64,000 nt of DNA. Source: Methanobacteriales archaeon HGW-Methanobacteriales-1. GTDB taxonomy: Archaea > Methanobacteriota > Methanobacteria > Methanobacteriales > Methanobacteriaceae. The notes under the pieces were generated by a model, which worked only from the letters and a program-made list of their open reading frames with translations, did not search any database and was not told the DNA's origin. The position numbers and the translations under genes were made by a program. Shown in pieces: positions 20,328 to 23,455 of this stretch; position 1 is the first letter of the stretch; every line of letters begins with the position of its first letter. The stretch covers positions 1-64,000 of the forward strand of contig PGYO01000007.1 in assembly GCA_002839705.1 (NCBI GenBank). The letters are read 5' to 3'.

Positions 20328-21518
20328 TTATTCAAAATAATCCTTAATAGACTTCGCATAAGAACCATCTTTAAGTTTTAAACCCTCAGTAACAGATTCA
20401 CAGGAAGTCCCAAAGCCATGGGCCACCATAGTATGCCTTCCCGGACCACCGGCCACGACCAATACAACATCCTCTGGTGACCGAGTCAGGGAAACCATAT
20501 CTCCTTTTACCCATTTTTTATCTAATCGACGGCCACCTCGATCTCCTAAATCCACCGGAACAGTGGCATTTTCATGAATGTAGTTTTTAACATCTTCCTT
20601 GGCCCAGCCCTCACCGGCCACGGTTTCTGCATGTTCGGGACTCATAATAACCATTAATTCTCCAGGAACATGGCTGTTATTACAGCCCGCCGTGGATATG
20701 GTGTGCACAATGGTGTCCAGCACATCTTCAGCAGTTTTACTGCGGTGATCATTCACATTATGGGGTGCTTCCATTCCCAGTACCGTAACTGCACTACTGT
20801 TTTCAGAAAAACCCCGCTCCACATGCAACGGCTCCCAGGGACTTTCATCCTCATTTTCCCCAAAACAATAACTGTACTTGGCAGGGGAACCCATAGTGGC
20901 ATGGTCTCCAATACCAGCAATGGCCCCAGCAATATTAATTAAACAAAGCCTTATGGCCCGGCCTATGGTAGCATTAGCCAGATTTCCCGGACCCAGACAA
21001 CCGGCTCCAGAATTTATTTCCAGCTCCTGAGTTATAGGTCCATTTACCAGAGCACAGATGGCCACTGGATGGGTGGTAGCATTGACTCCGGCCAGATTAA
21101 ACTGAGGCTGACTCATTCCAATGATGGCCTTTTCTAAAACCGGCATAAATAATGGCAGACAACCGGCCATGACTCCATTTATGGCTATTTTTTCCATAGT
21201 AATCTTTCCCTGTCTAGGAGGAAGCAAGGCCAGCACATCCTGAGGTTCATAGGATGAGTACTTATAGAATTTCCACACTCTTTCCCGAGTTGGTGGCACT
21301 ATAGGTAGGCCATCTGTATATTTTTTCTGATAAAAATCAAGGCTTATCTTTTCCACGTCGGGGTCTACAAATATTTCCATATCTTGCCTTGAAGTAGGGC
21401 ATAATCTGTCAGACTTCTTCACGGATTCAATACTTGTTTTGGTTTTAGATTTTTCCGGACTTTCACTTAAAATGTCTTCAATGAGACAGCCACATGATTT
21501 GTCAATTTTTTGCTTCAT
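20328..21518 (-). CDS. Uncharacterised conserved protein (DGLPIVPPT family), UGSC-associated
   Basis: This 396-residue cytoplasmic protein has a short Cys- and Lys-rich N-terminal extension (KSCGCLIED) and then a conserved body beginning [15 protein letters not shown] (about residues 67-81). Further blocks include [35 protein letters not shown] and a late [10 protein letters not shown] recall these blocks from an uncharacterised bacterial family found near UGSC-motif (seleno)proteins, and such a protein is indeed encoded two genes upstream here. Several conserved Cys and Gly suggest a catalytic protein, but the reaction is unknown. GGGGAT precedes the ATG at 21518. Confidence 0.65.
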
Positions 21519-21724
21519 TAAATCCCCATAATATATGATAATTAGTAATAGAACATTTTGAAAATTAGAAAATATAATAGAAATTAATTTGATTATCATT
21601 TAAATTTTATTGAAAATATCATTATTAAATATAGTTATAAAATGTCAATAATTTGAATTAGAGATTTTAAAGGTGTTTAAAAATGATTATTATTGTATTT
21701 ATTAAAAAGGAGCAATAATATAAA

Positions 21725-21827
21725 TTTTTAGAGTTAAAATTTTTTAAATAGCCTTTAAATAATCGCAGGGATTTTTTTAGAGTTAAAATTTTACTAAATA
21801 ACTCTCAAATAAGCACAGGCATTTTTT
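21725..21827. repeat. Imperfect 49-bp direct repeat at the peptidase 3' end
   Basis: Two adjacent units each starting AGAGTTAAAATTTT (at 21730 and 21779) and ending with a GCACAGG/CGCAGGG block are roughly 80% alike by eye. The second unit contains the last codons of the peptidase gene. On the minus strand the first unit would read PCDYLKAI plus stop, compared with ACAYLRVI plus stop in the real gene, so it looks like the 3' remnant of a duplicated copy. Confidence 0.6.
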
Positions 21828-22576
21828 AAAATATTTAATTCAGTTTGCACCGGGATATCAACCCCGTGATTTATCTTTTCTACTTCCAGGGTTATGGCCT
21901 TAATATTTCTTTTACTGGCCTCGGATCGCAGAGTTCCATTGGTAGGGTTAGTTTTAATGACGCATCCTGTGTTGTTTTGAATATTTTTAGCCCAGGACTC
22001 TTCAAATGAATTTCCATAATATACCATTCCTTCTTCTTTGATACCTATTCCAGAATGAACATCTATTAAATAGTTTATTTTATGGGAAACAGCGAAATTT
22101 AGAATTTTGTTGACTGGCGTTCCAGGAATGTAGGCCTTGCGATTAGGATCATAAACATCACCGGACTGGTTATAGTAACGTGTATTTTTTTCGGTGTCAA
22201 TAGGTATGGCAAAGGGTATGATGTAAATTGTTCCTGTGTTTCTGTGACTTTTGAGGTAATACAGCATGCTAACAACTGTTAAAGACCCTTGAACTTCATC
22301 GCCATGTATACCTCCACAAATCAGGATTTTCTTCCCCTTTCCATTTCCCAAACGATAAACCTGTGATCCTTTTTCTAAATTGAAGTCAAATCGACTATTC
22401 AACAAATTTTTTAGATAATCTTCAATTAGTGGATTGGCTTGGATATTACCCCCAACTTCCATATCCAGAGTTTGTTTATAAATGTGGGTGGCATAAGCTG
22501 GGGAGTTAATGCTAATTAAACCAGAGGACATTAATGAAAATGTTAAAATTAGAAATATTAATGTTTTAAAATTCAT
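21794..22576 (-). CDS. Secreted M14/succinylglutamate desuccinylase-like zinc peptidase
   Basis: This 260-residue exported protein has a clear signal peptide (about residues 1-29, ending in SPAYA). The zinc site is the M14/aspartoacylase type: HGDE (His91, Glu94) and DVHSG (His174), with a catalytic glutamate in TLEVE near residues 231-233. No C-terminal anchor is seen. A role in trimming pseudomurein or surface peptides is reasonable but unproven. An ATG four codons upstream is an alternative start; 22576 gives a cleaner signal peptide. A GC-rich hairpin lies about 60 bases upstream, and a duplicate of the gene's 3' end lies downstream. Confidence 0.75.
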   Translation of the reverse strand: MNFKTLIFLILTFSLMSSGLISINSPAYATHIYKQTLDMEVGGNIQANPLIEDYLKNLLNSRFDFNLEKGSQVYRLGNGKGKKILICGGIHGDEVQGSLTVVSMLYYLKSHRNTGTIYIIPFAIPIDTEKNTRYYNQSGDVYDPNRKAYIPGTPVNKILNFAVSHKINYLIDVHSGIGIKEEGMVYYGNSFEESWAKNIQNNTGCVIKTNPTNGTLRSEASKRNIKAITLEVEKINHGVDIPVQTELNILKNACAYLRVI

Positions 22577-22638
22577 AAAAAAACACATAATTTAGTTAAT
22601 TACTTTTTTTAATTGATTATTGAAATTTTCATGGAGTG

Positions 22639-22669
22639 TTGCCCTATTGAATATTATTCAACAGGGCAA
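22639..22669. ncRNA. Strong GC-rich hairpin, candidate structured RNA or 5' UTR element
   Basis: TTGCCCT and AGGGCAA pair around an inner ATTGAAT/ATTCAAC stem and a three-base loop, giving about 13 pairs of 14. The segment to about 22696 continues unusually GC-rich (GGCCTAG, CTCGGCGG) in very AT-rich non-coding DNA. In AT-rich archaea such islands often mark non-coding RNAs. It lies 63 bases upstream of the secreted peptidase start, so it could also be a leader element. Confidence 0.45.
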
Positions 22670-22829
22670 AGGCCTAGTTCTAGACTCGGCGGTGTACAAT
22701 TATAATGTAAAAGTTTAAGTATTTAAATTTTCCTATTTTTTAATAATATTAACATATATTTCAATTGATAAAAACCAAAAAAATAAAAATTGTTATAAAA
22801 TAAGAATTTAAAATGCTTAAAATTTTGAT

Positions 22830-23348
22830 TTAAGAAATATTTAGAATTTTCTTAATATTTAGAACTATTTTAAGTGTTTTTTCAACCACTTCGTCCCTTT
22901 TCCGTCCGGCAATAGGATGTTCCACTTCCAATATTCTTAGACTATCTGCTCCATGGGATTGAGCCAGATTTCTAGCAAAAGAAGCAAATTTGTGTGAACA
23001 GATAGATATAGTGGCCACACCCTCTTTCTCCAGACGAATGGCATCTAAAATAACCCAGGTGGTACAGGAACCACAGTCTCCCAGAGCTAGTATAGAAACA
23101 TCTCCCTGGGCAGCTTTTTTTAGTTGTTCATTGGTTGCTCCGGCTCCGGCTGGTTTTTCAGAGTGAATAATTTCCACGTCTCGTAAATTAGAACCAATAG
23201 TTTCCAGAATAACATTGGCATTGGGTTTGGTATTGTCAAAAAGAGAAATTTTAGATATTTCCGAGGGAATTTCATTTAAATCAATTTTTTCTCCTCCAAA
23301 ATCTGCCAAAGGATCCATTACTTCCCTTTCAGTTACATTAACTTTCAC
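22830..23348 (-). CDS. UGSC-motif family protein, cysteine form
   Basis: This 172-residue protein carries the hallmark of the UGSC family as CGSC (Cys92 to Cys95 within LALGDCGSCTTW); in many bacterial members the first residue is selenocysteine, replaced here by Cys. Further conserved blocks are SHKFASFARNLAQ and EVEHPIAGRKRDEV near the C-terminus. The CxxC-like pair suggests a redox or thiol-dependent activity; no reaction is established to my knowledge. GTG at 23348 is chosen as start because GTGGTA lies upstream; GTG at 23357 is possible. It is co-directional with the secreted peptidase and the DGLPIVPPT-family gene downstream. Confidence 0.75.
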   Translation of the reverse strand: MKVNVTEREVMDPLADFGGEKIDLNEIPSEISKISLFDNTKPNANVILETIGSNLRDVEIIHSEKPAGAGATNEQLKKAAQGDVSILALGDCGSCTTWVILDAIRLEKEGVATISICSHKFASFARNLAQSHGADSLRILEVEHPIAGRKRDEVVEKTLKIVLNIKKILNIS

Positions 23349-23455
23349 AAATACCACTTTTTTATAACTATATTCTAAAAATTAAATGATTTGAATATTA
23401 ATCTAAATTAAATCCAATTAATTAAAATCAAAAATAAAAAGATTGGATTAATAGA

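Follow-up and report, generated by a model that had tools for sequence, protein, structure and literature searches.

This study finds that the UGSC-family proteins and the DGLPIVPPT-family proteins (DGLP) are evolutionarily coupled and in many cases fused, and that UGSC is probably, though this is not proven, a distant relative of the selenocysteine domain of GrdB, to judge by profile comparison. We propose, and give it an even chance, that the two are subunits of one thiol-based reductase, selenol-based in most bacteria, which would work like protein B of glycine/D-proline reductase. The window, namely the whole stretch of 64,000 nucleotides analysed here from a Methanobacteriales archaeon, carries the pair on its minus strand in the order lysS, UGSC, AstE/AspA-like hydrolase and DGLP:

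25033-23456, minus strand: class I lysyl-tRNA synthetase (lysS), the ancestral upstream neighbour of UGSC in the order, outside the system
23348-22830, minus strand: UGSC-family protein in its Cys form (GDCGSCTTW), assigned by family profile matches and the motif, proposed catalytic thiol subunit
22588-21794, minus strand: zinc hydrolase of secreted type, AstE/AspA-like, lying between the two genes of the pair, an apparent lineage-specific insertion, probably outside the system
21518-20328, minus strand: DGLPIVPPT-family partner of 396 aa, unclassified, proposed substrate-binding subunit with an invariant Cys120

The UGSC reading frame spans 22830-23357 on the minus strand in the ORF list of the window, and the GTG at 23348 is favoured as its start because the homolog at locus L006 begins MKVRIVERDVMDPLA; the CGSC cysteines are accordingly Cys92 and Cys95, or Cys95 and Cys98 when counted from 23357. 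A sequence-only reading of this DNA had recognised a CGSC-bearing UGSC-family protein at 22830-23348, and the profiles agree with it, scoring 165 bits for NF041046 (NCBIfam cut-off 125) and 142 bits for PF24696 (Pfam cut-off 25). That reading had also taken the archaeal protein for a Cys form, and the motif does contain a Cys codon in frame with no internal stop, so that selenocysteine is absent from the encoded protein. The motif is not a product of chance, because CGSC is unchanged in 19/19 Methanobacteriota homologs, all of which keep GDCGSCTTW, and C95, G96 and C98 do not vary among 28 diverse aligned homologs; the archaeal orthologs thus conserve the cysteines that the sequence-only reading had allowed might prove variable. 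The window protein shares with the NF041046/PF24696 family its sequence, the GD(U/C)GSCT motif and its length, but differs in being a Cys form, single-copy and vertically inherited beside lysS, whereas most bacterial members found carry selenocysteine and many are fused to DGLP. The whole genome of the window holds one UGSC and one DGLP copy, and neither SelB (TIGR00475, a bacterial model that is weak for an archaeon) nor tRNA-Sec scores above cut-off in it.

In the order of the window, DGLP is carried by 18/150 genomes, and the identical 18 carry UGSC; across the phylum Methanobacteriota, the identical 19/152 genomes hold both, although these 19 carriers are kin and do not represent 19 independent events. 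The carriers within the window's family are spread across four genera, and UGSC is a neighbour of lysS across most of the order, genomes G174 and G100 included. In G174 the two genes lie about 170 kb apart and in G100 on opposite strands, and their survival of separation in both genomes points to function, not merely to position. The gene between the pair in the window encodes 264 aa, with an N-terminus resembling a signal sequence and a domain of AstE/AspA type; its PF24827 match (43.3 bits against a cut-off of 25) implies an aspartoacylase-like or M14-related protein, so that "peptidase" in the "secreted peptidase" of the sequence-only reading was a guess. Because this gene, present in the window, G075 and G049, is missing from L003 of the same genus and from the loci read from other families, it appears to be a later, lineage-specific insertion. 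As a pathway member it was rejected, being absent from most Methanobacteriota pairs, including those with UGSC and DGLP directly adjacent. Four loci of one Methanobacteriales family (L012, L014, L015, L019) have UGSC and DGLP in the same frame, parted only by one TGA just ahead of the ATG of DGLP; this TGA was rejected as a selenocysteine codon, since it lies outside any motif and just before an ATG, as expected of an ordinary stop and restart. For the M. thermautotrophicus genes, whose locus tags we take to be MTH1540/1541, no literature was found under these tags.

The coupling extends far beyond the methanogens. A scan with the DGLP alignment over one genome per species gave at least 587 matches, from which 80 loci were kept, 79 of them outside the window's order; UGSC is present in 73/80, nearly always directly upstream, and at least two of the seven loci without it start at a contig end. 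All plasmid records with UGSC (7/7, from haloarchaea, Actinomycetota and Betaproteobacteria) have DGLP adjoining, and DGLP alone is commoner in plasmid records (24 records). UGSC and DGLP occupy one open frame as single-chain fusions in 34 pairs (e.g., L052, L064, L065), and their numbers are similar in 24 carrier genomes. The association in bacteria that the sequence-only reading had described is confirmed by gene neighbourhood, and a co-occurrence no greater than chance, which it had named as fatal to the link, is not what the same 19/152 genomes, 73/80 loci and 7/7 plasmids present. Its statement that bacterial UGSC can hold selenocysteine also proved correct, as the first motif Cys is an in-frame TGA within UGxC in most bacterial loci. 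tRNA-Sec passes the Rfam score in 21/27 genomes searched, all 21 being bacterial carriers, and SelB is above cut-off in G152, G157, G160, G164 and G169. In the DGLP tree the methanogens group together as a single clade (support 100/100), which falls with moderate support (86/91) among selenocysteine-using bacterial forms, and at least five Cys-label changes are required; Cys and Sec forms have replaced one another repeatedly. Separately, two DGLP paralogs flank one UGSC gene in the haloarchaeal loci L043, L044 and L085, suggesting a heteromeric partner; the UGSC of an Arthrobacter plasmid (L045:11081-11893) has a long C-terminal extension, probably a NifU-like domain, matched by one member of the set; and MAG records titled "Bordetella parapertussis" (L080, L092, L098, L115, L119) carry Sec-form pairs typical of environmental Betaproteobacteria, so these names look wrong.

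The relationship of UGSC to GrdB was found by profile alignment. A PF07355 search of the 24 carrier genomes returned two kinds of protein, complete GrdB and short GrdB-like selenoproteins carrying UxxC, which score 99.8% against each other by hhalign. UGSC scores 92% against the GrdB C-terminus and 92% against the short proteins, the UGxC motifs being superposed, and with the motif masked the values are 53% and 83%, respectively; the controls reach at most 1.1% in 20 column shuffles per target (40 in total) and at most 0.4% with reversed targets. The similarity to GrdB spans only about 60-86 columns, and hmmscan of 10 UGSC members gave no PF07355 match at E up to 10. Like GrdB/PrdB (glycine, sarcosine, betaine and D-proline reductase; PF07355), UGSC has UGxC at the same place of the domain, with the next helix and an LEKxGIPTV stretch aligning; unlike them, it has no counterpart of GrdB residues 1 to ~330 and scores too low for PF07355, and its partner DGLP shows no kinship to GrdB. 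DGLP was rejected as a relative of either GrdB or UGSC on its hhalign values (2% and 0.2%, respectively). Many short GrdB-like selenoproteins (UPxC/UGxC; L134-L149) were observed in the carrier genomes, matching only the C-terminal third of PF07355.

For the natural fusion L052, the predicted model (pLDDT 91, pTM 0.91) places Sec95 between strand 87-93 and helix 96-111, so that UGSC is predicted to be an alpha/beta domain whose reactive residue sits where a helix begins after a strand. Foldseek with the whole fusion as query gives Rossmann-like hits of flavodoxin/lumazine-synthase type, none significant, and no thioredoxin in the top 50. These results bear on a reading that we consider unlikely, in which UGSC would be a thioredoxin-like redox protein keeping a DGLP cysteine reduced and DGLP alone would be the enzyme. 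It would account for the invariant Cys120 of DGLP, for the trxA/trxB neighbours of a few loci and for DGLP genes without a nearby UGSC (L126, L127), and the 2008 Global Ocean Sampling paper called UGSC likely Trx-like (PMC2398784); however, the predicted secondary structure alternates in the Rossmann-like manner, the structural matches, all insignificant, include no thioredoxin in the top 50, and the profile link of UGSC is to GrdB instead.

The DGLP reading frame covers 20328-21599, and the ATG at 21518 gives the 396 residues counted in the sequence-only reading, which overstated the "many conserved Cys" blocks: the sole invariant cysteine is Cys120 (74/74 in the DGLP alignment; Cys218 in 61/74). 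D69, N114, R187, N195 and E221 of DGLP are also conserved. The protein has no family match in Pfam, NCBIfam, PADLOC or PHROG and nothing significant by sequence in the PDB, and the literature search found no paper on the family. The predicted model of the window protein has a mean pLDDT of 87, with most of the core above 90 and a disordered N-terminus before it; Foldseek against the PDB gave no match at E <= 0.001, and DGLP is predicted to be a separate domain without a convincing relative among solved structures. In methanogens, the N-terminal extension, which is predicted to be disordered and is absent from bacterial DGLP, carries a Cys-x-Cys motif (SCGC in the window protein encoded at 20331-21518). 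The nearest, insignificant Foldseek matches are ring-opening/cyclic amide hydrolases (E 2e-3, TM 0.2), and amidohydrolase and DUF6282 genes are neighbours of the haloarchaeal loci; both would suit a hydrolase or lyase whose Cys or Sec acts as a covalent nucleophile with no redox turnover, DGLP being perhaps a very distant relative of the ring-opening amidohydrolases (Toblerone fold). We regard this as quite improbable, as a TM of ~0.2 is at noise level, a selenocysteine with a resolving cysteine (UxxC) is a redox hallmark, and trxB occurs in some loci.

The bacterial pairs multiply beside genes for solute-binding proteins and beside CoA-transferase, enoyl-CoA hydratase-like and MmgE/PrpD genes, with TctC in 26 loci. 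trxB adjoins the pair in L045, L049, L050 and, by a weaker match, L128, and trxA in L045; with trxB at 4 of ~107 loci only, thioredoxin reductase was rejected as a general partner. A TPP enzyme at L125:3767-5839, close to the pair, includes a domain of FlK type (fluoroacetyl-CoA thioesterase family), and similar proteins occur in four loci. The methanogen pair has no electron donor or transporter gene adjoining. A role in handling metals, metalloids or organometals, by binding or detoxification, has a precedent in that several uncharacterised selenoproteins have been discussed as metal-binding (PMC13188914), but the recurrent neighbours are carboxylate uptake and acyl-CoA genes and include no metal transporter, mer or ars genes, save one annotated zinc ABC substrate-binding protein, and we hold such a role to be most improbable.

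The UxxC/CxxC motif, the link to GrdB, the one constant fusion partner and the duplication beside solute-binding and acyl-CoA genes together are consistent with a reductase whose substrates are small acids taken up by the cell. In such a two-subunit reductase, DGLP would bind a small, probably carboxylated substrate, and the first Cys of UGSC, Sec in bacteria, would attack either a thiol of the substrate or the carbon that bears the leaving group. The adduct would then be resolved by the second Cys, and thioredoxin or another dithiol donor would restore the Cys pair. Cleavage of C-N and C-F bonds by Sec attack has been proposed for GrdB-type proteins (PMC10838667). Methanogens have just one copy, a Cys version passed on by vertical descent, and its single-copy gene in a stable location suggests that it probably serves one fixed substrate.

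The opposite extreme is found in G157, a groundwater Chloroflexi MAG of 5.0 Mb (contigs JACPQD01...; loci L078, L082, L105, L107, L116, L130, L184-L200). From 193 UGSC candidates there are 150 scored matches, 146 of them with an in-frame TGA, and the number of TGA-bearing UGSC genes is thus at least 146. Within 333 kb read directly, 66 UGSC genes, 64 of them with U in UGxC, alternate with 68 DGLP genes and are surrounded by 64 SBP_bac_5-type genes, such that these lipoproteins are about as many as the pairs. The UGSC copies are not strain duplicates, because the nearest protein pairs are at most 78% identical, although the count may possibly come from a mixed assembly. SelB is above cut-off in G157, and its examined tRNA-Sec candidates were ordinary tRNAs (105 of 735 candidates scored). 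The count is more than twice the published maximum, the largest published bacterial selenoproteome having 63 genes (PMC13188914).

A broader proposal, to which we give somewhat less than an even chance, is that UGSC-DGLP constitutes a large selenol/thiol reductase superfamily separate from Grd/Prd, which would combine a GrdB-like catalytic domain with a substrate subunit of new fold, would have diversified with solute-binding proteins into the largest known selenoprotein expansion (146 genes or more in a single genome), and would persist in thermophilic methanogens as a near-core enzyme of the Cys form. A parallel is offered by the fluoroacetate-cleaving FarB/FarE, a pair of the GrdB type that has taken on a new substrate; attack by a selenol has been proposed for it, and its operon includes a transporter (PMC10838667); FarB and FarE, however, are true GrdB/GrdE homologs, unlike UGSC and DGLP. 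The UGSC family was already in the literature in 2008, as was a fusion of it to an unknown domain: the Global Ocean Sampling report describes UGSC joined to one conserved extra domain, "Unknown_1", which is very probably DGLP (PMC2398784). That report suggested a Trx-like fold and a limited distribution, whereas the present analysis points to a relationship of the GrdB kind and shows a wide distribution that takes in archaea. A 2026 review lists UGSC as functionally uncharacterised (PMC13188914), and our search turned up no earlier description of the GrdB relationship, of the Cys pair in archaea or of an expansion of this size.

In conclusion, the link to the GrdB catalytic domain and an unclassified partner subunit provide a concrete reaction type, which makes the function of the pair testable, and the one-copy Cys form of the methanogens, being free of selenium, needs no recoding for production in E. 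coli. Should the bacterial paralogs prove to be reductases specific to particular substrates, each with a binding protein of its own, they would represent a large unexplored set of bond-cleaving enzymes for dissolved organic matter.
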